Position numbers and translations under genes: made by a program. A stretch of 27,990 nt of DNA, from positions 1 to 27,990 of the IMG/VR virus record IMGVR_UViG_3300033143_002937, one strand, 5' to 3'. Within the stretch, counting starts at the first letter, position 1; the number at the start of each line of letters is the position of its first letter. Shown here in pieces: positions 718 through 25,684 of this stretch. Origin of the DNA: a virus. Below the pieces are notes generated by a model. It searched no databases. It was not told the DNA's origin and saw nothing but the letters and a program-made list of their open reading frames with translations.

Positions 718-1175
718 TTATGCATCTTTGATGAAAGCTACCCAATGAGTTTTAGCCTTTTTACCCGTCTTGTGTCCGTATAAAGGCTTATACGGAGTTA
801 GTATTTAAACACCAATGTTCCAAAAGGTTTTAATACCCTAAAACACTCACTAAACCCTTGTTTTAGGTCATCCCTCCACGTTTCATCTAATAAGCCATAA
901 GAAAAAGCAAGTCGGCCAGTTTTCCCAGCACCTTTGTAAAAGTGAGGGGGATCAAAAACCACATGATAAAAGCTATTGTCTGCGAAAGACATTTTACGGA
1001 AATCGTGTATCATATCAGGATCCACAACAATTGGGCTTCTTCCTTTTGTTCCTAGAGTTCCAACATCTACAACTCGTTCACCTTGCCTTTTGTCGCAAAA
1101 AGCCACTCTGTTGTCTTTTTTATCAAACCAAAAACCTCTGGCTGAGCAACAAGGATCCAAGACTAATTTATTCAT
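718..1175 (-). pseudogene. SAM-dependent DNA methyltransferase, disrupted near the 3' end
   Basis: Residues 1-125 match a phage class I methyltransferase family: LDPCCSARGFWFD is the SAM-binding motif I and DPPH at about residues 75-78 is the catalytic motif IV, of the kind in N6-adenine/N4-cytosine enzymes. The start is ATG 1175 after AGAAGG. The frame stops at TAA 798-800 straight after GTLVFKY. The family's usual C-terminus resumes at once in another frame: 718-798 reads TPYKPLYGHKTGKK, ending THWVAFIKDA and TAA. Family members I remember have about 13-14 residues between these blocks, so the simplest reading is a small deletion that also shifted the frame. The catalytic motifs are intact, but the truncated 125-residue product is probably impaired. 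Confidence 0.75.
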
Positions 1176-4469: not shown

Positions 4470-4697
4470 TTAGAAAGGCACCATTCCCTCAAAGCCTTTT
4501 TCACTTTCCTTTGGCTCTTTTTTAAGCTTCTTACCAAATTTAAGCATATAATCTGGGTGATTATCTTTAGATTTCTTGGTTTTGAATACAAATACGTCAC
4601 ACTCTCCAAAGTTGCCGCAAAAATACTCTTCACCATTTTTGTCTGTGCGTTTCCATAAGCCAGTTATGGCAGCTAAATTATCTTCTCTTTCACTCAT
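4470..4697 (-). CDS. Small protein with SSB-like C-terminal tip (75 aa)
   Basis: A 75-residue protein with a short strand-rich core (ITGLWKRTDKNGEEYFCGNFG, DVFVFKTKKSKDNHPDYML), loosely like the DUF736 group, then a Lys/Glu linker ending GFEGMVPF. Bacterial SSB proteins end in an acidic tip finishing Pro-Phe that recruits repair enzymes, and this tail resembles it. Start ATG 4697 overlaps the preceding stop as ATGA and follows AAAGGGG. A ssDNA-related role fits the operon but is inferred. Confidence 0.6.
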   Translation of the reverse strand: MSEREDNLAAITGLWKRTDKNGEEYFCGNFGECDVFVFKTKKSKDNHPDYMLKFGKKLKKEPKESEKGFEGMVPF

Positions 4698-5941
4698 TGT
4701 TTTACCCCTTTAAATTCTTGTTGCGCAGTTCTCTCAAACTCCTCTTTTTCCATTTTCTTTTTTATTAACTTCATATAGTTTTTATAGGCTGTAGTTTTGT
4801 GCTGAGTAAAACTTAAACCTTTACACCAATAATCATTTCTAAGAAGTGATTTACAGACTCTTCTCCATGAGGGTGCTAGTTTTTTAACCTCAAGAGCATA
4901 GTCGGCCTCATCAGGGATACCTTCAGGATAACCCCGATCTTTCCACCAATTAGCAAAAACAAAGATCTTTACCTTAAAATGCTCTTTAGTCACATCAGGC
5001 ATAGACTCAATCAACAACTGAGAGAAAGACTCCCAGGTGTGACCATTAGGCTTTGTAACCTTCCTATAGCCGTTTATGTTGCCCCACTCCTGATTATATA
5101 AAGCCCCACTATTTGCACCATTAACTCTTGCAACAACTTTTGCCCACGTTTCAGGCTCTATAATATGGAACAACCATAAGCCCCTTCTCTGGTCATCCCC
5201 ATAAGGCTGGCAAATTCTCATTTGATTTATGGTTAAACCAGCTTTGTGCATATAATCATAAAGCTCATTATGAGGCTTTGTTGGATTTTTATAGTGATAA
5301 ATCCAAATATCAGCAGTTTTAAAATCATAGATAGGATAGACATTATAACAATGGTCTGTGACTTTTGAAGTCCAACCAAAGTTTTTATGTCTAATTTTCT
5401 TTGTGCTGGCTATTGTTCTGTATCTGTTCAAAGACTCATCACTTCTTATGCCAACAAAACAAGCACAAGACTTTCCTTGAGAATACCACTCACCAAACAA
5501 TGGAACAAACTCTTCAAACTCCATGTCATGCTTAAAGAAAGGAAAAAACTCAGGGTCTTTTATTGATATTTCAGGCCATTCTCTGACCCAAATATCTCTT
5601 TTAGTTTTATCCCAACAAGTCCACTTAGGCTCATAAACAGACACGGCATTTCTTAGTGTTATTGGCAGAGTGACCCAAAAAGGCTCAATTATGTCTTTGT
5701 ATTTTTCAAACATTTCTGTTGCATGGTGTATTGTGAATTTATATTGAGCCTCTAGGTCGATTAGCATTAATCCAATTTTACGGCCACGTTTCTTAGCCTC
5801 ATCAGCCACCATGTGAAGCATTACAGAACTATCTTTACCAGCACTAAAGCTCACATAGATTCTTTCAAAGTCATCAAATGTTTTTGAAATCCTATCCTTT
5901 GCAGCATCATAGACATTTACATCAGAATAAACTTTAGGCAT
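4694..5941 (-). CDS. PAPS-reductase-family PP-loop protein with DUF3440-type C-terminus (IbrA-like)
   Basis: 415 residues from ATG 5941. The PP-loop SFSAGKDS (31-38) binds ATP in the adenylating sulfur-transfer family. GIRSDES (164-170) and ADIW (210-213) are further family motifs. PYGDDQRRGL (246-255) marks the DUF3440-type extension found in IbrA of E. coli. The C-terminal Cys motif that CysH uses for sulfite formation is not seen, so simple sulfate reduction is unlikely. A gene for a ParB-like protein matching IbrB lies two genes upstream. Known relatives act in sulfur chemistry on nucleic acids (DndC-like) or in regulation (IbrA/IbrB). The substrate here is unknown. Its start overlaps the previous gene by eight bases. 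Confidence 0.8.
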   Translation of the reverse strand: MPKVYSDVNVYDAAKDRISKTFDDFERIYVSFSAGKDSSVMLHMVADEAKKRGRKIGLMLIDLEAQYKFTIHHATEMFEKYKDIIEPFWVTLPITLRNAVSVYEPKWTCWDKTKRDIWVREWPEISIKDPEFFPFFKHDMEFEEFVPLFGEWYSQGKSCACFVGIRSDESLNRYRTIASTKKIRHKNFGWTSKVTDHCYNVYPIYDFKTADIWIYHYKNPTKPHNELYDYMHKAGLTINQMRICQPYGDDQRRGLWLFHIIEPETWAKVVARVNGANSGALYNQEWGNINGYRKVTKPNGHTWESFSQLLIESMPDVTKEHFKVKIFVFANWWKDRGYPEGIPDEADYALEVKKLAPSWRRVCKSLLRNDYWCKGLSFTQHKTTAYKNYMKLIKKKMEKEEFERTAQQEFKGVKQ

Positions 5942-6323
5942 CAAAGTATCCCATCAAGTATTTCTCTTCCCAGTCTTTTATAACCTCAGAAGCTACTTCA
6001 TTTGCTTTTTTTTGAGTCTTCTCATCAAGATTAAACCAAGCTAATTTTGTTAGATATTCAGGTGCTCCATGAGAAAAACAACAAGCTGCTTGCCCTAAGA
6101 AGGCCTTTCTGTTTCTAGACATATTTGTTAGGTGTTGTTCTGAAGAGGTTAACCAGTGATGAGTGACAAAGGTCATAGATTCCCACAACCACTCTGGGCA
6201 TGATAACAATAGCTCACAGTCGTTAATCATCGCATATTTATCCATAAAGCAAGTAGTCTCATACATACCTTGTCCAAAACATTCCCAATTTTTATAATTA
6301 TGAAATTTACGTTCTATATTCAT
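5934..6323 (-). CDS. Hypothetical protein between IbrB-like and IbrA-like genes (129 aa)
   Basis: A 129-residue protein rich in Cys, Trp and His (WECFGQGMYETTCFMDKYA, CCFSHGAPEYL), ending in a helical segment (DEKTQKKANEVASEVIKDW). The ATG overlaps the ParB-like stop as ATGA, after a GAGG site. Its place between the two partners, with overlaps on both sides, suggests the three act together. It may have an enzyme-accessory or metal-binding role; no family name is recognised. Confidence 0.65.
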   Translation of the reverse strand: MNIERKFHNYKNWECFGQGMYETTCFMDKYAMINDCELLLSCPEWLWESMTFVTHHWLTSSEQHLTNMSRNRKAFLGQAACCFSHGAPEYLTKLAWFNLDEKTQKKANEVASEVIKDWEEKYLMGYFDA

Positions 6324-6997
6324 TGACTAACCTCAACATTATCAGTTAATGAGTCCGATTCATTTATTGAGTCAACTATCCATGACTTTGAAAATTCTTT
6401 ATCCGAAAACATTTCAGCAAGCCCTGATATCTGGGCAAGCCTCAACACCTCATCAGCATCCATGCCTAGTTCATTAGCAATTTTCTTATCACTCCAATTT
6501 CTTTTCTTAAGATCAACAACAATCTCAGACATAGCATCGACCTTATGCTTACCCCTGGCCCTGTTGTGCCTGATTGTAGAGGCAATACGATCTTGTTTTT
6601 TAGTTCTGCTTGAATTTATAACAACAAGAGGCAAATAACCATTTATTCTTTTAGATACGACCTTTGATTCTTTTCCAACTCTAGTTCTATGAAAACCATC
6701 AACAACCTCAAAGGAGTCTTCTTTTTCCCATGAAACAACAGGCTGAGTATAACCATCTTCTCTAATTGAGTGCTCTAAAAGCTTCATTTCAGTTGGGGCC
6801 ACGGCATTTGGATTGTAGTCATTAGCCTCAATATTATCAGCCTTAACCCATACCACACAGTCAACAGGCTCTTTCTTAAAAGGGCTATGTTTATGAATTG
6901 TCTTTTTAAGCTCATTAATTAAGCTAACCTTCTCATCTAAGTCAGTTGTTTTTTTAATCAAAGATATCAATTCTTTTAGTAAATCATCCTTTTTCAT
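6320..6997 (-). CDS. ParB/sulfiredoxin-fold protein (IbrB-like)
   Basis: 225 residues from ATG 6997, chosen because GAGG lies nine bases upstream; an in-frame ATG at 7012 lacks a site. After a helical N-terminus comes the ParB N-terminal domain: NDYNPN, DGYTQPV (81-87) and VVDGFHRTR (98-106). A helix-turn-helix-like segment follows (WSDKKIANELGMDADEVLR). This fold binds or cuts nucleotides or DNA; with an IbrA-like neighbour it matches IbrB rather than a plasmid partition protein. It overlaps the Bet gene by 14 bases. Confidence 0.75.
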   Translation of the reverse strand: MKKDDLLKELISLIKKTTDLDEKVSLINELKKTIHKHSPFKKEPVDCVVWVKADNIEANDYNPNAVAPTEMKLLEHSIREDGYTQPVVSWEKEDSFEVVDGFHRTRVGKESKVVSKRINGYLPLVVINSSRTKKQDRIASTIRHNRARGKHKVDAMSEIVVDLKKRNWSDKKIANELGMDADEVLRLAQISGLAEMFSDKEFSKSWIVDSINESDSLTDNVEVSQ

Positions 6998-7757
6998 CTT
7001 GGTTAACCTCATTTTCTATTTTAAAATACTCATCTTTGCTAGCTTCACCGGACTTAATTTGAGTATAGATTTCCCTCAAACTATTAACATCAGTTCCAGA
7101 AAGGTCATCTAAATCAGCAATCTTACACTTATTTAAAATATCAGACTTTGAAACAGACAACCCCATGAAAGCCTGTACTAAAGAATCATTTTTATTTGAT
7201 TTATTAGGCAGAAAGGCAGTTTGCTGAGGGGTTACATCTTTGATTTCTGATTGCTCCATTTCTTCATCTGTATATAAGCCAGACAACTCACTAGAGAAAG
7301 CTTTTCTAAGGGCCTTAGCCTCAGCACACTTTTCAAGCATTGTTTCTGGTAACTTGCGCCACATAAAGCCCATTTTCTCACCAGGGTAATATTCTGCCCA
7401 CTTTGCAGTTGCAACAAAAGACACCCTGATTCCTTTTACAATCTTGTAAACAGTCACCTTAGCCTTGTCAGGAAATTTAGACCCATACTCAAAGGTTGTT
7501 TCATCTTGCCCAGCATAAACCCCAGACCTGTGAGCTATTAGCCTGAAACCATCTATTCCAACCTGTAGAGTGACCACATACTTACCATTTTTGTCTTTTC
7601 TTTTAACAGCATGAATCTGACCCAGAAGAGGGTCTAAACCTCTTGATTTTGCAGCTTCAATGTAAAAAGAAAACTCATTGTCTGTTAAAGTCTTAGCAAC
7701 TGAGTTTTTGATTATGCTCAGTTTATCATCAGCAAATGTTATTAATTCGTTATTCAT
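6984..7757 (-). CDS. bet: Phage recombination protein Bet (Red-beta-like single-strand annealase)
   Basis: A 257-residue protein, close to the 261 of lambda Red-beta. Family sequence is clear: AAKSRGLDPLLGQIHAVKR near residues 34-52, VGIDGFRLIAHRSG (87-100), and EKCAEAKALRKAFSSELSG toward the end of the core. It anneals complementary single strands and pairs with a 5'-3' exonuclease, here the gene directly upstream (TAATG overlap). The C-terminal 80 residues are variable, as in the family. Confidence 0.9.
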   Translation of the reverse strand: MNNELITFADDKLSIIKNSVAKTLTDNEFSFYIEAAKSRGLDPLLGQIHAVKRKDKNGKYVVTLQVGIDGFRLIAHRSGVYAGQDETTFEYGSKFPDKAKVTVYKIVKGIRVSFVATAKWAEYYPGEKMGFMWRKLPETMLEKCAEAKALRKAFSSELSGLYTDEEMEQSEIKDVTPQQTAFLPNKSNKNDSLVQAFMGLSVSKSDILNKCKIADLDDLSGTDVNSLREIYTQIKSGEASKDEYFKIENEVNQDEKG

Positions 7758-17804: not shown

Positions 17805-18515
17805 ATGGCAACAGCCGCAGAGATAATAGAGAACGGATTAAGAAAACTAGGGGTTATAGCAAGCGGTGCAGACCCTTCTAGTGCTGAGCAAGCTGATGGT
17901 TTAACGGCATTAAATGAAATGATTGAGTCGTTTTCCAATGAGTCAGTCTTTATTTTTGATGATAATGAAGAGACCTTTTTGCTAACAACTTCAAAAGCTT
18001 CTTACACAATGGGATCCGGTGGTGATTTTGACACCACAAGGCCTTTAAAGATCAGTAAGGCAAGAATACAACTAAACACTTCAAATCCAGTTATAGAACT
18101 AAGAATGGACATTTTGTCCCTTGATGAGTGGGCTAAGATTGTCCAAAAAAACATCAGTTCAAACATTCCTAGATCAATTTATATTGATTACAGTTACCCT
18201 TTAGCAACCATAAATGTTTATCCAATACCTAGTGTTGCTCAGAGTATTATTTTAAATTCAATGAAAGTAGTGCAGAGTTTTGCAACAGCAGCAACAGCTG
18301 TGAGCTTACCACCTGGCTACAATAGAATGCTCACCTACAACTTTGCTGTTGAGGTGGCTAGTGAGTATGGGGTTGAGCCAAGCCCAACAGTGCAAAGAAT
18401 AGCAAACGAATCTAAGGCCAATATAATGAGGTTAAACACAAAACTACCTTTATCAAATAATGGTATTGCAGATATGCTAAATGGCGCACCTTTTAACTGG
18501 CTAACAGGTCAATAA
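17805..18515 (+). CDS. P22 gp4-like tail accessory factor
   Basis: 236 residues. Helical N-terminus (ATAAEIIENGLRKLGV), then family features EMIESFSNES and RPLKISKARI, a SLDEW motif, and LPPGYNRMLTYNFAVEVASEYG near residues 167-188. In P22, gp4 attaches to the portal after packaging and starts tail assembly. The next gene is gp10-like, completing the expected pair. Confidence 0.85.
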   Translation: MATAAEIIENGLRKLGVIASGADPSSAEQADGLTALNEMIESFSNESVFIFDDNEETFLLTTSKASYTMGSGGDFDTTRPLKISKARIQLNTSNPVIELRMDILSLDEWAKIVQKNISSNIPRSIYIDYSYPLATINVYPIPSVAQSIILNSMKVVQSFATAATAVSLPPGYNRMLTYNFAVEVASEYGVEPSPTVQRIANESKANIMRLNTKLPLSNNGIADMLNGAPFNWLTGQ

Positions 18516-20723
18516 ATGAAATTAGAAGGCTTTGTAAATGGTGCTTATACTTTAGACTCTGTGAATGTAGACGCTCAAAGATGCGTTAATCTTTACCCTG
18601 AAGCTATTGAGAGTGGAACAGGTAAGGGTGGTAATCAAGGTTATTTAAAGAACACTCCAGGGTTAGAGGCCATAACAACAGTTGGCAATGGCCCAATTAG
18701 GATGATTCACAGAGACGCAAATAATAGGATTTTTATAGCCAGCGGTGATGAGCTTTATAGATATGCTGCTGATGATGATCAAGAGACAATTTTGTGGGCT
18801 GATAAGTTTATAAATGGTGGTGTCGATTCAGGTTGGATAGGTACAGACTCTGGGAATATAACAATCTCAACAGACAATTTCCACAAGTCATCAGGCATTA
18901 GCTTAGATTATTGGTACACAGGAGCTAAAGTTAAATTCACAGTAACATCAGGAACAGCACCCTCTGGCATTATAGAGGATGAAGAATATTATTTAATTTA
19001 TGTAGCGACTCAAGATTTCAAACTAGCCACAACTTTAGAGAATGCCTACAATGGGGTGGCCATTGACATCACTAACGCTGGGGCAGGAGTTTATAAATTC
19101 CTACAAGTCACAGGTGAAATAAGAATAAACTTAAAGAAAGGTGATATTGATTTTGGGACAAACACCTTTTCTTACCCTGATGGTCATAATCTAATAAGCG
19201 GTGATAGAGTATTTTTGGGGTCACATGGGTGCGATCTACCAACAGGATTAACCCACTTCTTTGATGGGATTTCTGTTTTTACTTTATACTTTGTTATTAA
19301 AGACTCAGCAAATTCTTTCAGGCTAGCAACTTCAATTGCTAATGTTGTTTCAGACACAGATGTTTCTTTTTCTGACCCTGGCACTTTAGTGTCAAAAGTA
19401 TCAAAGTCGAGTTTTATTAAGAATGACAAGATACTGCTTAGTATTTACCCTACAGAGGTAAATTTTGGCACAAGCACAGGGAGGGTTACAGCATCATCAA
19501 GTAGACCAGGAGCAACTGAATATTCTGTTTTAGGTCTGATGTGTGATGGAAATACCCCTATACAATTTGATGGGACTACTAATAACCCATTTCTTAAAGA
19601 TGCAACTCAATTTTTCAGCAGTGAGCCTGGCTTTTGGGTTAGAGTAGATGGTGAGCAGTATCATAGCACGTCTACTGTAATTGACATTGCTTTTTCTGAA
19701 GCTTCACACATTGACTGGATTGATGGCTATTTTATTTTGTCTAAAAAACTGACACCTTTTTTCTACACATCAGCATTAAATGATTTAACAGTTGATGCTT
19801 TGAGTTTTGCACAAGCTGAGGGTAGCCCAGATTTAATTATGTCTATAATTTCAAACGTAAGAGATTTGTGGGTATTTGGTGAGCGAACAACAGAGGTTTA
19901 TGTAAACACAGGTAATCCGGATTTTCCTTTTGAGAGAATACAGTCAGGGTTTATAGAGATAGGTTGTGCAGCTGCAAATAGTGTTAATAAAATAGAGGGT
20001 GTTGTTTTCTGGCTAGGCAGGTCTTCTGATGGTGAGGGTGTTGTTTATATGGCAAGTGGTATGCAACCACAAAAAATAAGCACGCATCCAATAGAGCAAG
20101 CCATAAGCAGTTATGCTGATATTTCAACAGCAACATCATATACTTATCAATCAAATGGTCACAAGTTTTATGTTTTAAATTTTGATGAGGCCACATGGGT
20201 CTTTGATATGTCAACAGGCACTTGGCATGAGAGAGCTTATACAAATTCAGGTGTTTTAGAAAGGCATAGAGGTGATACGAATTGTTATGACCAGAATGCT
20301 CAAGATCATCTAGTGGGTGATTATTCAACTAACAATTTATATAAATTTAGTGACACAATTTATGAAGATAACGGCAACACGATTACAAGATTAAGAACTT
20401 TACCCCATTACAGTAATGAGAATTACCAAATGTTTTGGGATGAACTTTGGTTGGATATGCAAACAGGAGTGGGCTTGGCGAGTGGTCAAGGTAGTGACCC
20501 TCAGGTGATGTTAGACTGGTCTGATGATGGTGGTCACACATGGTCTGATGAGAGTTGGACAAGTGCAGGTGGTCAATCCGGCGGCATTGGTGAGTATGCC
20601 ACAAGAGTTAGGTGGCGCAGGTTAGGTAGAGCTAGGGATAGAATTTTACGCTTTAAAATAACAGATCCAGTAAAGACAATTCTAATTGCAGCTTATGTGA
20701 AAGTTAGGCAGGGGTTTAATTAA
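18516..20723 (+). CDS. P22 gp10-like packaged-DNA stabilisation protein, enlarged
   Basis: 735 residues against 472 for P22 gp10. The N-terminus (FVNGAYTLDSVNVDAQRCVN, LKNTPGLE) and the second half (SNVRDLWVFGERTTEVYVNT, SDGEGVVYMASG, ATRVRWRRLGRARDRILRF) match the gp10 family, which forms the tail hub below gp4. Residues 111-293 are an insert with two similar modules, each with a Y(Y/F)-hydrophobic-Val stretch then F(K/R)LATS/T and a closing aspartate-rich turn. The insert accounts for most of the extra length. It directly abuts the gp4-like gene. Confidence 0.8.
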   Translation: MKLEGFVNGAYTLDSVNVDAQRCVNLYPEAIESGTGKGGNQGYLKNTPGLEAITTVGNGPIRMIHRDANNRIFIASGDELYRYAADDDQETILWADKFINGGVDSGWIGTDSGNITISTDNFHKSSGISLDYWYTGAKVKFTVTSGTAPSGIIEDEEYYLIYVATQDFKLATTLENAYNGVAIDITNAGAGVYKFLQVTGEIRINLKKGDIDFGTNTFSYPDGHNLISGDRVFLGSHGCDLPTGLTHFFDGISVFTLYFVIKDSANSFRLATSIANVVSDTDVSFSDPGTLVSKVSKSSFIKNDKILLSIYPTEVNFGTSTGRVTASSSRPGATEYSVLGLMCDGNTPIQFDGTTNNPFLKDATQFFSSEPGFWVRVDGEQYHSTSTVIDIAFSEASHIDWIDGYFILSKKLTPFFYTSALNDLTVDALSFAQAEGSPDLIMSIISNVRDLWVFGERTTEVYVNTGNPDFPFERIQSGFIEIGCAAANSVNKIEGVVFWLGRSSDGEGVVYMASGMQPQKISTHPIEQAISSYADISTATSYTYQSNGHKFYVLNFDEATWVFDMSTGTWHERAYTNSGVLERHRGDTNCYDQNAQDHLVGDYSTNNLYKFSDTIYEDNGNTITRLRTLPHYSNENYQMFWDELWLDMQTGVGLASGQGSDPQVMLDWSDDGGHTWSDESWTSAGGQSGGIGEYATRVRWRRLGRARDRILRFKITDPVKTILIAAYVKVRQGFN

Positions 20724-21217
20724 TGGCTAATATTTTAAAATCATTCAAACTGCCTATAAAAGATAATTTGCTTGATGCAAATGGGTCTTTGGTAAGGTCT
20801 TGGCAATGGTTTTTTCTAAATATTCAAGATTTATTAGTGCCAATGGGTCAAGAAAGAGCTTTTGATTTAGTCAATGCTCAAACAAGTGCTGCTGACATTA
20901 AAAACTTAGTTTTCAGCAAATCAGGTACAACAGGAGTAATTGTAGAATACATAGTGCAGAGAATAACTGCCTCTGTTGAATTAACAGAGTTTGGTTCATT
21001 TGGTTGTGTGTATAATCCTACAAGTGAAGACTGGTCTTTGTTTGCAATTTCAGAAAATAACCCAGACAATGCTAATATAGTTTTTTCAATAACAGCAGCT
21101 GGGCAAGTTCAATACACAACTTCAAACGAGTCTGGCACTGAGTCTATTAGTAAAATATGGCATAGAGCCAGGACAATGGCTGGTAAACATAATTTATACT
21201 CAAAGGTGAATAGATAA
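20723..21217 (+). CDS. Tail-region structural protein (predicted, 164 aa)
   Basis: A 164-residue protein with an N-terminal GSLVRSWQWFFLNIQDLL segment of the type found in small phage tail adaptors, then strand-rich sequence. Its ATG overlaps the gp10-like stop (TAATG) and its own stop overlaps the next start. Structural role inferred from place and composition. Confidence 0.55.
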   Translation: MANILKSFKLPIKDNLLDANGSLVRSWQWFFLNIQDLLVPMGQERAFDLVNAQTSAADIKNLVFSKSGTTGVIVEYIVQRITASVELTEFGSFGCVYNPTSEDWSLFAISENNPDNANIVFSITAAGQVQYTTSNESGTESISKIWHRARTMAGKHNLYSKVNR

Positions 21218-22083
21218 TGAATAATGCTATAGATTTAGTTAAAGAAAAGGGACTTTCAGAGGCGGCAAACGTACTTGAAAAAGTTATGCTTAAAGAAGAT
21301 CAAGCCTATTGCCCTGTTATTCATTCTTTTGGTCCTGGTTTATATGTAAGAGAAGTTAAAATCCCAAAAGGTGCTTTTGCCATAGGTCATTCACAAAAAC
21401 ATGAGCACATGAATGTCTTTTTAAAAGGTGAAGTTACAATTTTAAAGGACGATGGTACAGTTGAGACCCTGAAAGCGCCGATGATGTTTGTTGGTAGCCC
21501 TGGTAGAAAAATAGGCTATGTCCATGAAGATGTCATATGGCTTAATATTTACGCAACTGATTTAAAAAATGTAGAAGAATTAGAGGATTATTACCTAGAA
21601 AAATCTGAAGTGTTCGGTGACAATGAAGACATGAATTTTAATATGCAAAAAGTAAAACGTGAGGTTGATAGAAGAGATTATAAAGCCTTATTAGATGAGC
21701 TTAGCATAACAGAGGAAATGGTTCAAAAGGACGTACAAAACAAAGATGATTTAATAGATTTACCTCATGGTAGCTATAAATGTAAGCTAGGCGCGTCTCC
21801 TATACACGGTAAAGGTTTGTTTGCCACCAAAACCATAATGGCAGGTGAGATTATTTGCCCAGCAAGATTAATGGATAAGCGCACAATGGCTGGTAGGTAT
21901 ACAAACCATGCAAAAGAACCAAACGCCATAATGAAAGATAATAATGGCGATATAAATCTAGTTTGTTTAAAAGAAATTAAAGGCCAACACGCAGGGCGTG
22001 ATGGTGAGGAAATAGTAATAAATTATAGAGATTCTATTAATCTTCTAAAAGAGCAAAATAGGGGTAAATCATGTCAGGAGTAG
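21217..22083 (+). CDS. Cupin-SET fusion protein
   Basis: 288 residues in two parts. Residues 30-115 are a cupin beta-barrel: HSQKHEHMNVFLKGEV gives the paired His (62, 64) and the Gly turn, and GYVHEDVIWLN gives the second-motif His (103) and Asn. Residues 186-272 are a SET lysine methyltransferase domain: HGKGLFATKTIMAGEI (SAM-binding start), RYTNHAKEPNA (the NH motif), and GEEIVINY (the final E-x-x-x-x-Y element). Pre- and post-SET cysteines are absent. It sits between tail-hub and ejection genes with overlaps, so its product may modify a virion or host protein. Activity is inferred. Confidence 0.75.
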   Translation: MNNAIDLVKEKGLSEAANVLEKVMLKEDQAYCPVIHSFGPGLYVREVKIPKGAFAIGHSQKHEHMNVFLKGEVTILKDDGTVETLKAPMMFVGSPGRKIGYVHEDVIWLNIYATDLKNVEELEDYYLEKSEVFGDNEDMNFNMQKVKREVDRRDYKALLDELSITEEMVQKDVQNKDDLIDLPHGSYKCKLGASPIHGKGLFATKTIMAGEIICPARLMDKRTMAGRYTNHAKEPNAIMKDNNGDINLVCLKEIKGQHAGRDGEEIVINYRDSINLLKEQNRGKSCQE

Positions 22084-22901
22084 CAACAGCAATAGTAGGT
22101 GGTGCAATAATCGGTGGTGTAGTTCAAGACAGTGCAAGCAAACGTGGGATTAAATCACAAGAAGACGCTAGTGCAAGAGCAGAGTCTACACAAGAGCGTA
22201 TGTACGAACAACAAAGAGAAGATTTGGCGCCTTGGCGCGAAGCTGGCACAGGAGCTTTAGAACAAATGCAAAGCGGTGACATTCAAGCTCAACTAGAGGC
22301 AGACCCTGGTTATCAATTCAGAATGCAGCAAGGAATGGGCGCCTCAAATGCCGCCGCTTCAGCAAGAGGCGGCTCATTAGGCGGCGCTCAACTAAAGGCT
22401 TTAAATAGATATGGGCAAGACTATGCTTCTCAAGAGTATGGAAATTCTTGGAATAGATTATCAACCTTAGCTGGTCTTGGTAGCAGTGCAAATCAACAGG
22501 GTGTTTCAGCAGCTGGGCAACTCGGTACAAATATGGCTAACAACCAAATGTCAATGGGAAATGCTCAGGCCGCTGCTCAAATAGCCCAAGGAAATCAAAT
22601 GAGTAATATGATAGGGCAAGGGACAACTGCTTATGCTATGTACGCCTCGGATGAAAGACTAAAAACAGACATTAAACCAGTTAATAAAGAAGATCTTGCA
22701 GAGTTAAGAGCAGCGATTAAACCTTATGCTTATAAATACATAAACAGTGATTTAGGTGAAGGTGAATTTATTGGTGTAATGGCTCAAGACTTAGAGAAAA
22801 CAAAACTAGGCAAAACAATCATTGAAGAAATAGACGGATTTAAATTTGTGAATATGAAAAAAGCAACTTCATTATTTTTAGCATCAATTGCAGAGGGGTA
22901 A
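22071..22901 (+). CDS. Ejection/tail protein with C-terminal S74 chaperone domain
   Basis: 276 residues. The N-terminal hydrophobic glycine segment (AIVGGAIIGGVV) and Gln/Ala/Gly-rich helical middle (residues 28-185) resemble DNA-transfer proteins. Residues 192-276 (ASDERLKTDIKP, EFIGVMAQDLEKT) are an intramolecular chaperone of the endosialidase type (peptidase S74), which cleaves itself at the Ser (193) of SDERLK, with Lys198 nearby. These domains usually end tail fibres and spikes. The start uses AGGGG and overlaps the SET gene by 13 bases. Confidence 0.7.
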   Translation: MSGVATAIVGGAIIGGVVQDSASKRGIKSQEDASARAESTQERMYEQQREDLAPWREAGTGALEQMQSGDIQAQLEADPGYQFRMQQGMGASNAAASARGGSLGGAQLKALNRYGQDYASQEYGNSWNRLSTLAGLGSSANQQGVSAAGQLGTNMANNQMSMGNAQAAAQIAQGNQMSNMIGQGTTAYAMYASDERLKTDIKPVNKEDLAELRAAIKPYAYKYINSDLGEGEFIGVMAQDLEKTKLGKTIIEEIDGFKFVNMKKATSLFLASIAEG

Positions 22902-22904
22902 GAA

Positions 22905-23891
22905 ATGCCAATAGATAGTTCAATATATTCTAGACAGATTATGCCGGACATTGCAGGGTCTATGCAGCGTGGAATGCAAATGTCCGATATGATGCAACAA
23001 AAAGAAGTTAGACAACAGGAATTTGAAAAGCAAAAAGCTATAAAAGATCTTGCTGAGTCTAGCATGACTCCTGATGTGGGTGGTGGTTCTAAATTTGATC
23101 AAGAAAGATATTTATCAGGCCTTTACAAAATAGACCCGCAAAAAGCCATGCAAACACAGCAAATGATGCAACAGCAACAGGCTGGGCAAGAGGGATTAGC
23201 ATTAAAACAGCAAGGCGCAATGCTTGACAGAAGAAAAGCTGGCTTTAGAGCAGTTAGGGACGACTCAGGAAAAGTTACAGGCATGGAGCGTGACCCTGAT
23301 TATAAAGACCCAAAAGCTCAAGAGCAACAATTTAAAATGGTCGATATGCTAAGAAAAGAGAGAAGTGCTTTGCCAGTCACAAAAGCAACACAGGCCGTTT
23401 CAGTAGCTTATAATAAAATTAGGCACGCAAAAGAAAACCCATCAGCAGCTGGTGATTTAACAATGGTTTTTAACTTTATGAAAATGTTAGACCCTAGCTC
23501 AGTAGTAAGGGAATCAGAGTTTAAAACAGCAGCTGGAGCAAGAGCAGCAATCTCCAAAATGGAGAACTCTGGCACCTTTATTCCAGCAATTGTAAAACAG
23601 GGTATGCAAAGAATGGAAACAGGTAGGTTTTTATTGCCTGAACAGTTAGAAGATTTTGCAGGTCAATCAGCTGGCCTCTATGAGGCTCAAATTTCTCAAC
23701 AAAGAAAAGCAGACTCTATTTTTGAAAGAATAGCAGGTCAAAGAGGATTAGACCCTAAAAATATTATGATTGAATTTGGGACAGATGTTGCTGGTAAGAA
23801 AAAGAAAAAGCAACAATTTGATGTAAATACTCTTATAGATTTAGATGATAAGAGTCTTGATGAAATGTATAAACAAGCTGGCGGTGAATAA
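22905..23891 (+). CDS. DNA ejection protein (predicted)
   Basis: 328 residues, Met/Gln-rich and helical at the N-terminus (RGMQMSDMMQQKEVRQQEF, QQMMQQQQAG). The C-terminal half contains PSAAGDLTMVFNFMKMLDP then SSVVRESEFKTA, a block I recall in podovirus internal-virion proteins. It probably enters the host with the DNA. An AGAGGGG site precedes the ATG; it overlaps the next gene as TAATG. Confidence 0.7.
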   Translation: MPIDSSIYSRQIMPDIAGSMQRGMQMSDMMQQKEVRQQEFEKQKAIKDLAESSMTPDVGGGSKFDQERYLSGLYKIDPQKAMQTQQMMQQQQAGQEGLALKQQGAMLDRRKAGFRAVRDDSGKVTGMERDPDYKDPKAQEQQFKMVDMLRKERSALPVTKATQAVSVAYNKIRHAKENPSAAGDLTMVFNFMKMLDPSSVVRESEFKTAAGARAAISKMENSGTFIPAIVKQGMQRMETGRFLLPEQLEDFAGQSAGLYEAQISQQRKADSIFERIAGQRGLDPKNIMIEFGTDVAGKKKKKQQFDVNTLIDLDDKSLDEMYKQAGGE

Positions 23892-25684
23892 TGGCAAGCA
23901 GAGAGGAAAAGATTGCATTTATTCAACAGAAAATGACTCAACAACAAGACGCATCTTTGCCTCAAAGCCCTGGGCCAACACAAGAGCCAACAAGAGAACA
24001 GAAAATTGATTTTATAAAACAAAACATGACTCAACCACCTCAACAGAAAGACGCAAGCCTTGGTGAGAGAGGAGAGGCTTTTCTACAAGGATATGGTGAA
24101 TCATCTACATTTGGTTATTTGCCAGAAATTCAAGCGGCAACTTATCCAGCTTTTGAAAAAGTAGGTGAAATGCTTACTGGTCAAGACATACCTGATGAGC
24201 CTTACCAACAGAGGTTAAGACAAGCAGAAATAACTGGTGAGGCAACAAAAGCCAAAGCACCAGTTGCGGCAATGGGTGGCCAAATAGCTGGGTTTATTGT
24301 TCCTGGTAGCAAAGTTGCAAAAGGTGTTAAGGCCGGATTTAAGGGCGCAAAAGCATTAAAAGGGTTAACAGGCTTATCAAAGGCCGCTGCAATGGGCGTT
24401 GCTGAGGGGTCTGTAATGGCTGGCTTACAAAAAGCTGAAGACTTACCAGGGAAGCTGCAAAACATAGCTTATGGGGCTGTTGGTGGCGGATTAATGGGCG
24501 GTGTAGGTAAAGGCTTTGAAAAAGCAGGCCACGCATTAAAAGAGCACGCAAAGGCTTTGAGAATTAAAGGCGTTGGCACAATGCTTAAAGATTTCAGAAA
24601 TATATATCACAGAGGTGAAGTAAACAGCCTAAATACATTCATAAAAGAAAAGAAAATTTTAAGACCTGGCTCAACTGTTGAAACAGTTGTTAATAAAGTT
24701 AGGCCAATGATTAAAAAAATAGGGAAAGAGTTAGATGATACTTATAAAAACCTTAAAAAAACTCTTGATGATTCTGATTTTATAGACAATTTAACTCCAA
24801 AGCAGCAAGACAAGTATTATGATGTTGGCTTTTACCCTGGCTCAAGTAAAAATGAAGCTCTTTCTTATATTAAAAGTAAAATTAAAGTGGAAGAGGGTGC
24901 TGAAGCTGCGATAAGCAAAGTGGGCAAATATTTAGATGAAATGGTTTCTGAGTTTGGTGATGATATATCTATTAAACAAGCTAATGACATTAAAAGTGCT
25001 GTAGACAGAGTAATAAATTATAGCAGAAACCCAATGTCACCAGACCCTATAAAAGAAAAGGCTTTTTACTATTTAAGGAGATTTATTAAAGACAAAATTG
25101 ATGACCAAGTAAAGTTTATTGATGATGTTGTGGGAAGTGCGGACGCTAAAAAACTTGTAAAACTAAATAAAGAGTATGGAAATTCTGCAACTATTTTAGA
25201 TATATCAACGGATAGAGTTGCAAGGGATGCCTCAAATAGAATATTTGGTTTATCTGAGCAAATAGCCACAGGGGCTCTTGGTGCTGGCTCATTAGCAAGC
25301 GGTCAAGATAAAGAAACAGCTGCTTTAATGGCTGGTGTTGGTTTTTTATTGTCAAAAGGTGCAAAAAAATATGGCCCAGGTTTAGGCGCACCTCTAATGG
25401 AGGGACTAGGGAAGGCCGTTGGTGGTTTTGGCAGAGGAGCGATGAAAGCGGCTCCAATAACTGGGGCTTTAGCCGCAAGCCAACCAAAAAAAGGTGAAGC
25501 TAAGTGGGCAAGCAAAGGCCTAAACTCTGTTATAGAATCAACAGGTGACCAAAGCTTTAAGTCTTTAGAAAACAGCAAAGACAAAGAAGTTAAAAGGCTC
25601 TTGATGCAAGCATCAGGACTTAAAAAAGACTCCAAAATGTTTAAAAATATAGTTAAGAAATTAAAAAGAAAGGTAGGTAAATAA
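23891..25684 (+). CDS. Large DNA ejection protein (P22 gp16 position)
   Basis: 597 residues. It opens with two similar repeats (REEKIAFIQQKMTQ and REQKIDFIKQNMTQ, each ending DASL). Residues 107-215 and about 452-520 are Ala/Gly-rich and membrane-active in character (GAVGGGLMGGVGKG, ATGALGAGSLASG), suited to crossing the host membrane. A helical middle and basic end (KNIVKKLKRKVGK) lie around them. No lysozyme motif is seen. Position and composition support an ejection role. Confidence 0.65.
   Translation: MASREEKIAFIQQKMTQQQDASLPQSPGPTQEPTREQKIDFIKQNMTQPPQQKDASLGERGEAFLQGYGESSTFGYLPEIQAATYPAFEKVGEMLTGQDIPDEPYQQRLRQAEITGEATKAKAPVAAMGGQIAGFIVPGSKVAKGVKAGFKGAKALKGLTGLSKAAAMGVAEGSVMAGLQKAEDLPGKLQNIAYGAVGGGLMGGVGKGFEKAGHALKEHAKALRIKGVGTMLKDFRNIYHRGEVNSLNTFIKEKKILRPGSTVETVVNKVRPMIKKIGKELDDTYKNLKKTLDDSDFIDNLTPKQQDKYYDVGFYPGSSKNEALSYIKSKIKVEEGAEAAISKVGKYLDEMVSEFGDDISIKQANDIKSAVDRVINYSRNPMSPDPIKEKAFYYLRRFIKDKIDDQVKFIDDVVGSADAKKLVKLNKEYGNSATILDISTDRVARDASNRIFGLSEQIATGALGAGSLASGQDKETAALMAGVGFLLSKGAKKYGPGLGAPLMEGLGKAVGGFGRGAMKAAPITGALAASQPKKGEAKWASKGLNSVIESTGDQSFKSLENSKDKEVKRLLMQASGLKKDSKMFKNIVKKLKRKVGK

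Follow-up and report, generated by a model that had tools for sequence, protein, structure and literature searches.

The window, the whole stretch of 27,990 nucleotides of viral DNA analysed here, belongs to a short-tailed phage with a gene directly before its DNA-ejection gene that joins a cupin domain to a SET domain. The N-terminal part of the encoded protein is, in its predicted structure, a double-stranded beta-helix of the cupin superfamily, and the C-terminal half is predicted to be a SET fold in which the GxG, NH and catalytic Tyr motifs are kept across the family. The fusion is not exceptional: it belongs to an uncharacterised phage family that is widespread, common and already present in databases. 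What is new here is that the same genomic slot also carries GNATs (linked by sequence to P22 gp14) and a sulfotransferase, with Asp/Asn hydroxylases encoded one gene before it; this wider finding deserves follow-up. The functional reading that we favour, at a probability of roughly 0.45, is that the protein is an active protein-lysine methyltransferase that is made with the ejection apparatus and probably acts on it during assembly.

Genomic context

The operon of the window runs in the order gp4-like, gp10-like, 164-aa gene, cupin-SET, gp7-like, gp20 position and gp16 position. This is the P22 register 4-10-26-14-7-20-16, with cupin-SET in the place of gene 14 (Table 1); in T7 the slot corresponds to gene 13, which genes 12 and 14 flank. 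The initial annotation, made from the sequence alone, had the coordinates, start and stop of the fusion gene right, and also its overlaps with both neighbouring genes, which amount to one base upstream (TAATG) and 13 bases downstream (22071-22083). It rightly called the downstream neighbour an ejection gene, this being gp7-type by PHROG 598 and by a family profile match to P22 gp7. The designation of the upstream neighbour as a tail gene is plausible at most, given its P22 gene 26 position and its weak match, the only one in PHROG, to family 20420 ('virion structural protein', E 0.0056). The further statement that the protein is made with the virion holds in the sense of co-expression only, as seen from gene overlap and late-operon position. 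The core of the proposal, a cupin-SET fusion with intact catalytic motifs inside a virion operon, is supported by fold, profile, conservation and position.

Table 1. Positions in the window of the fusion gene, its domains and motifs, and the surrounding virion genes
Feature	Position	Strand	Basis and remarks
gp4-like adaptor	17805-18515	+	PHROG 637; fixes register with P22 map
gp10-like head closure	18516-20723	+	PHROG 578; fixes register with P22 map
164-aa gene, P22 gene 26 (tail needle) position	20723-21217	+	1 base common with fusion gene
Cupin-SET fusion gene	21217-22083	+	288 aa; ORF, PHROG 34170, AF2 model pLDDT 95.3
Cupin domain, residues about 30-130	21304-21606	+	Structure matches TM1459, HP0902; H58, Q60, H64 conserved
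Helical connector, residues 131-182	21607-21762	+	AF2 secondary structure
Compact SET domain, residues 183-275	21763-22041	+	Pfam SET; VIA-align MLL1 Z 10.2; PDB profile search
GxG motif, G198-K199-G200, expected S-adenosylmethionine site	21808-21816	+	Both Gly 73/73
R227-Y-T-N230-H231 motif	21895-21909	+	R, N, H 73/73; aligns with RFINHS of MLL1
E265-I-V-I-N-Y270 motif, expected catalytic Tyr	22009-22026	+	Aligns with GEELTYDY of MLL1
gp7-type DNA-ejection protein	22071-22901	+	PHROG 598, E 5e-43; 13-nt overlap with fusion gene; family profile matches P22 gp7
Gene in P22 gene 20 position, presumed ejection protein	22905-23891	+	Position
Gene in P22 gene 16 position, presumed ejection protein	23891-25684	+	Position; weak matches to PHROG 342 internal virion protein

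The gp7-type protein of the window ends in a C-terminal Peptidase_S74 domain (chaperone of endosialidase; residues 193-243, 43.5 bits), an extension absent from the four other ejection proteins aligned with it. The usual site of this domain is the C-terminus of tail spikes and fibres. Elsewhere in the window, the early region holds a phosphoadenosine phosphosulfate reductase-type gene (4694-5944, minus strand; PHROG 2302, E 1e-82) adjoined by a gene that is ParB-like by eye (6320-7012). A short DNA methyltransferase-like ORF (798-1175, minus strand) spans positions 51-167 of 229 in PHROG 954 and is possibly truncated.

Distribution of the fusion

The best family match of the protein is to PHROG 34170 (293.5 bits, E 3.9e-87, residues 1-276 of 288), a family without assigned function that represents the same cupin-SET fusion and from which no difference was found. 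The cupin part also matches PHROG 12032 (E 2e-31) and PHROG 24280 (E 7e-27), which are labelled short tail fibre or tail fibre adhesin. In a phage collection, 57 records match the fusion protein. Eight of them span 80% or more of the query and represent five distinct phages besides the window: zth2-2, ctfPj964 together with a second record identical to it in length and score, Rhodoferax P26218 (two records), ct1fd225 and Pseudoalteromonas PH1 (two records). PH1 and P26218 are cultured phages. The other records match mainly through the cupin part. A single-protein query against viral contigs gave no matches; an alignment query of IMG/VR was required, and it returned 476 related stretches, and the 80 of these that were kept are fusions. 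The gene name of one record refers to PBCV-1 vSET. Ten bacterial-genome loci were matched as well, among them two Paraburkholderia contigs that are long and hence probably prophages.

The same fusion at the same place, which the initial annotation had proposed to look for in other P22-type phages, is thus found widely, but its range extends beyond that group: zth2-2 has it next to a T7-type portal gene, and it also occurs in the long-tailed phage L041 and in prophage-like contigs. A curiosity limited to the window or to P22-type phages is ruled out by the 476 stretches, the Paraburkholderia contigs, zth2-2 and L041. A literature search, with most subscription journals outside its scope, returned no paper on SET domains in podophage operons or on a cupin-SET fusion.

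The SET domain

The Pfam SET profile (PF00856) scores 25.1 bits on the whole protein (cut-off 22.4) and 27.4 bits on the C-terminal half alone. Structure prediction, the check that the initial annotation had suggested, gave both domains with high confidence and with the SET fold present (AlphaFold2, AF2, with 56 homologues as input; mean pLDDT 95.3, pTM 0.90). Structure comparison of this model aligns the SET domain of MLL1 (7u5v) with residues 182-271 at Z 10.2 and 1.8 Å over 79 residues with 33% identity, and vSET at Z 9.1. Furthermore, a profile of the 56 homologues searched against PDB sequences matched MLL1/KMT2A (E 5e-7) as well as EZH2 and vSET, and lines up the GxG, NH and GEE..Y motifs with those of MLL1.

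Across 73 non-redundant fusions, S194, G198, G200, R222, G226, R227, N230, H231 and E265 are invariant. All but one also have Y270 (72), the exception having a gap at this position. Loss of the Tyr and NH motifs among homologues, which the initial annotation had named as a refutation, is therefore not seen (NH 73/73, Tyr 72/73). A chance motif match as the origin of the SET assignment is ruled out by fold, profile and conservation together.

The phage domain shares its fold and the GxG, NH and E..Y motifs with MLL1/KMT2A, EZH2 and PBCV-1 vSET, from which it differs in being much shorter between GxG and NH, in being fused to a cupin and in lying inside a phage virion operon. Only 27 residues separate G200, the second Gly of GxG, from R227, the Arg of RxxNH, and the SET insert is almost gone. 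An insert between GxG and NH that contains a second Tyr is usual, if not strictly defining, in SET methyltransferases, and normally shapes the substrate channel. No conserved Tyr is found between GxG and NH in the 73 homologues, and the place of the missing insert is occupied by the invariant R222 followed by Thr or Ser. Because the second-Tyr insert is missing, the claim made here is one of a SET-fold protein with intact core motifs and not of a proven methyltransferase.

The cupin domain and the optional SET module

Pfam Cupin_2 remains below threshold on the N-terminal part (13.1 bits), the cupin assignment being clear from structure: residues about 30-115 of the AF2 model match the cupins HP0902 (Z 10.0) and TM1459 (Foldseek, E 1e-5). 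In the 73 fusions H36, R45, E46, G57, G71, G96, K98 and W108 are invariant, with H58 kept in 70, Q60 in 69 and H64 in 71. The paired His 62/64 of the initial annotation is upheld for His64 but not for His62, which is unconserved in the 73 homologues, Phe being commonest there, so that the two as a metal pair are ruled out. The usual cupin metal site has four ligands, three His/Glu from motif 1, where H58, Q60 and H64 lie, and one His from motif 2. In a manual alignment the position of the motif 2 His of TM1459 is taken by the near-invariant Gly100 in the fusion family, and canonical metal binding by the cupin appears unlikely from these residue patterns.

Over 36 pairs, dN/dS is 0.088 for the cupin, 0.071 for the connector and 0.082 for the SET domain, a sign that purifying selection is strong on both halves and of similar strength, at a dN/dS of about 0.08.

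The slot proteins that consist of a cupin alone (PHROG 12032/24280, PHA00672; those of Thalassomonas BA3, Vibrio VvAW1 and Shewanella X14) have a homologous cupin of about 30-38% identity, occupy the same slot and overlap the ejection gene in a like manner, but lack SET and end in a short C-terminal tail. A tree built from 99 cupin domains calls for at least 3-4 gains or losses of SET. The exchange can be seen between two phages that are near-isogenic in this region, one with SET (L131) and one without (L128): their cupins are 92% identical over 156 residues and their next genes 81% identical, while L128 has a tail of about 28 residues in place of SET. By these sequence comparisons, SET is optional and modular, whereas the cupin stays constant. 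As the cupin-only phages manage without SET, methylation would be dispensable for the basic role of the slot.

Neighbours of the slot

The gene that follows the slot gene starts between -30 and +5 nt from it in all 96 fusion loci and all 72 cupin-only loci, and overlaps it in 76 and 60 of these, respectively. In 95 of the 96 fusion loci it encodes a gp7-like protein with a hydrophobic MSGVATAIVGG-like N-terminus, and a profile of these next-gene proteins recognises P22 gp7. The same profile matches the small proteins after the cupin gene in zth2-2 and Alteromonas R8W, where the cupin gene is relocated beside a connector/portal gene and the partner with a gp7-like N-terminus is kept. Since the profile matches even in relocated loci, the gene travels with a gp7-type protein that looks membrane-active. 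A gp7-like partner is not universal, however: in L041 and L047 the protein encoded after cupin-SET exceeds 1100 aa and has a hydrophobic N-terminus, and in L041 it is the Phage-tail_3/host-specificity (tail-tip) protein of a long-tailed phage.

No SET-specific conserved lysine was found in the adjacent ejection protein, either between 93 partners of SET-bearing and 71 partners of non-SET slot genes or in the closest pairs. In zth2-2 a GNAT gene (L004, 7132-7620; Acetyltransf_1, 27.7 bits) lies between the cupin-SET and portal genes, one gene after cupin-SET, so that a single phage carries both enzyme types.

Other enzymes in the slot

The content of the slot was surveyed in 75 loci fetched by similarity to the ejection protein; the way they were fetched and picked biases the sample, and the numbers that follow lack independence. 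Of these loci, 25 carry cupin-SET and 22 a cupin alone (two in each group without direct adjacency), and 28 carry other genes. Ten of these 28 are GNAT acetyltransferases, either above a Pfam cut-off (L267, L269, L272, L276, L282, L286) or by close homology to those that are (L268, L289, L295, L300). Others resemble GNATs at a weak Pfam score or none (L291, L320, L281, L277; L271, L274 and L324 unassigned), and three loci (L325, L327, L328) share one sulfotransferase sequence (Sulfotransfer_2, 32.7 bits, cut-off 22). The other eight are without family assignment.

Several loci have a second enzyme-like gene nearby. An Asp/Asn beta-hydroxylase (PF05118; 56-65 bits for those scored singly) lies directly upstream of the slot GNAT, in tandem, in L267, L268, L269, L282 and L289. 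At 2916-4000 of L325, L327 and L328 a DUF2824 (P22 gp14-like) gene is followed by the sulfotransferase gene and then the ejection gene, and in L320 (3148-4004) the ejection gene is preceded by a tandem pair of GNAT-like genes, each of which a slot-GNAT profile matches. The gene before cupin-SET in L051 (5505-5948) has an STPRSGSAW motif and is sulfotransferase-like by eye; Pfam gives no match to it and its PHROG label is hydrolase.

For comparison, a control scan covered 86 proteins flanking the slot at one gene upstream or two genes downstream. The exceptions that were traced all lie one gene upstream: the five beta-hydroxylases that precede GNAT genes, a single GNAT in front of a cupin gene and a single DUF2824 protein in front of the sulfotransferase. 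Protein-modifying enzymes were absent two genes downstream. Because the exceptions traced are confined to one gene upstream, protein-modifying enzymes cluster just before the ejection gene.

The classical occupants of this position are P22 gp14 (DUF2824; PHROG 651, head morphogenesis), between the gene 26 and gene 7 positions, and T7 gp13 (Phage_T7_Gp13, PF11090, probable scaffold protein), between nozzle gene 12 and pore gene 14. Both are unrelated in sequence to the fusion protein, which matches neither DUF2824 nor Phage_T7_Gp13, and although both belong to classical morphogenesis genes, no biochemical activity was found for either in the material examined. P22 gp14 is nevertheless probably a GNAT relative as judged from Pfam scores, because one slot protein (L272) scores above the cut-off for Acetyltransf_3 (29.9 bits) and, by only 0.1 bit, for DUF2824 as well (25.1, cut-off 25.0), and two others (L276, L286) score in both families. 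The AF2 model of gp14 (pLDDT 46.5) is too poor for a structural test of the GNAT fold, and hhalign of near-identical gp14 rows against the slot GNATs was uninformative, at 2.3% probability. No enzyme relation was found for T7 gp13, and its assignment as a GNAT has no sequence support. No paper on the slot as an enzyme site was returned by a literature search that left most subscription journals outside its scope.

Proposed function and alternatives

In the reading that we favour, the gene would encode an S-adenosylmethionine-dependent protein-lysine methyltransferase in which a minimal SET domain is carried on a cupin module. It would be expressed from the late operon and, through the frame overlap, may be translationally coupled to the gp7-type ejection gene. 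The cupin would act as the constant assembly factor, binding the ejection protein or another tail or core part, with SET as an exchangeable catalytic add-on that would methylate lysines of virion ejection or tail proteins. In T7, gp14 and gp6.7 build an outer-membrane channel (PMC11784390). The gp13 of a T7-like phage is annotated, in a database record note, as required for gp6.7 incorporation, and a slot protein acting on a T7-type gp14/gp6.7 channel complex would be the simplest common denominator.

This reading is favoured because the SET fold and motifs, the invariant catalytic residues and the purifying selection on both halves coincide with a next gene that is tightly spaced and mostly overlapping, and with a gp7-like partner that is kept even after relocation. 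It is further favoured by the repeated gain and loss of SET, by GNATs, a sulfotransferase and the P22 gp14 family holding the same slot, and by the annotated need for T7-like gp13 in the incorporation of gp6.7. Against it stand the cupin-only phages, the tail-tip partner in L041, a phage enzyme that acts on the host (Rac, below) and the lack of a lysine in the adjacent protein that tracks with SET, so that a different protein of the virion, or even the cupin, may be the substrate.

Fairly unlikely, though the strongest of the alternatives, is a host-directed modifier that methylates a host protein of transcription, proteolysis or defence, with its place in the virion operon setting the timing only. 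The precedent is Rac (gp28) of LUZ19, a GNAT encoded by a gene that overlaps the first of the virion structural genes, that of the small virion protein gp29, much as in the cupin-gene arrangement of Alteromonas phage R8W. Rac triggers cleavage of the alpha subunit of the host RNA polymerase, and residues of its acetyl-CoA pocket are required for this (PMC7552054). Like the fusion, Rac is a phage protein-modifying enzyme with a gene overlapping a small virion gene; it differs in its acetyltransferase fold, its host-directed action and its location at the start of the structural module. That SET is optional and exchanged between close relatives is also what would be expected of an accessory function. 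However, the gene is placed midway through a late morphogenesis operon in the window and most fusions, which is late for takeover, and a free host effector would not need the same gp7-like neighbour across very divergent phages.

It is improbable that SET in practice serves a tail component as a binding or structural module, with the cupin as tail fibre or adhesin and the motifs kept for folding and cofactor binding. The PHROG labels of the cupin part, the annotation of the cupin-only homologue of Shewanella phage X14 as a structural gene without assigned function and the near absence of the insert that normally shapes the substrate channel would fit such a role. However, the catalytic Tyr, NH and GxG are kept together across divergent phages beyond the needs of folding, and the AF2 model is a compact two-domain globule without fibre features. 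The last option of the initial annotation, a protein packaged and ejected with the DNA to methylate host proteins at entry, is very improbable: the adjoining genes do encode ejected proteins (PHROG; PMC8954989), but no sign of packaging appears in any source found and the compact globule of the AF2 model would have to traverse the tail channel.

More tentatively than the methyltransferase reading itself, we suggest that the slot before the ejection-pore gene in short-tailed phages could be a conserved docking site for exchangeable protein-modifying enzymes that chemically mature the ejection apparatus, in a general and unrecognised post-translational assembly step. These enzymes would comprise the cupin-SET methyltransferase, GNATs including the P22 gp14 family, the sulfotransferase and, one gene earlier, the Asp/Asn hydroxylase.

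Implications

The unusually small SET domain lends itself to the question of the minimal requirements of a SET methyltransferase. If the target is a host protein, phages would possess a SET-based tool for host takeover, parallel to Rac. If the slot is instead a site for protein-modifying enzymes, the cupin-SET protein among them, the injection machines of phages may be chemically modified during assembly.
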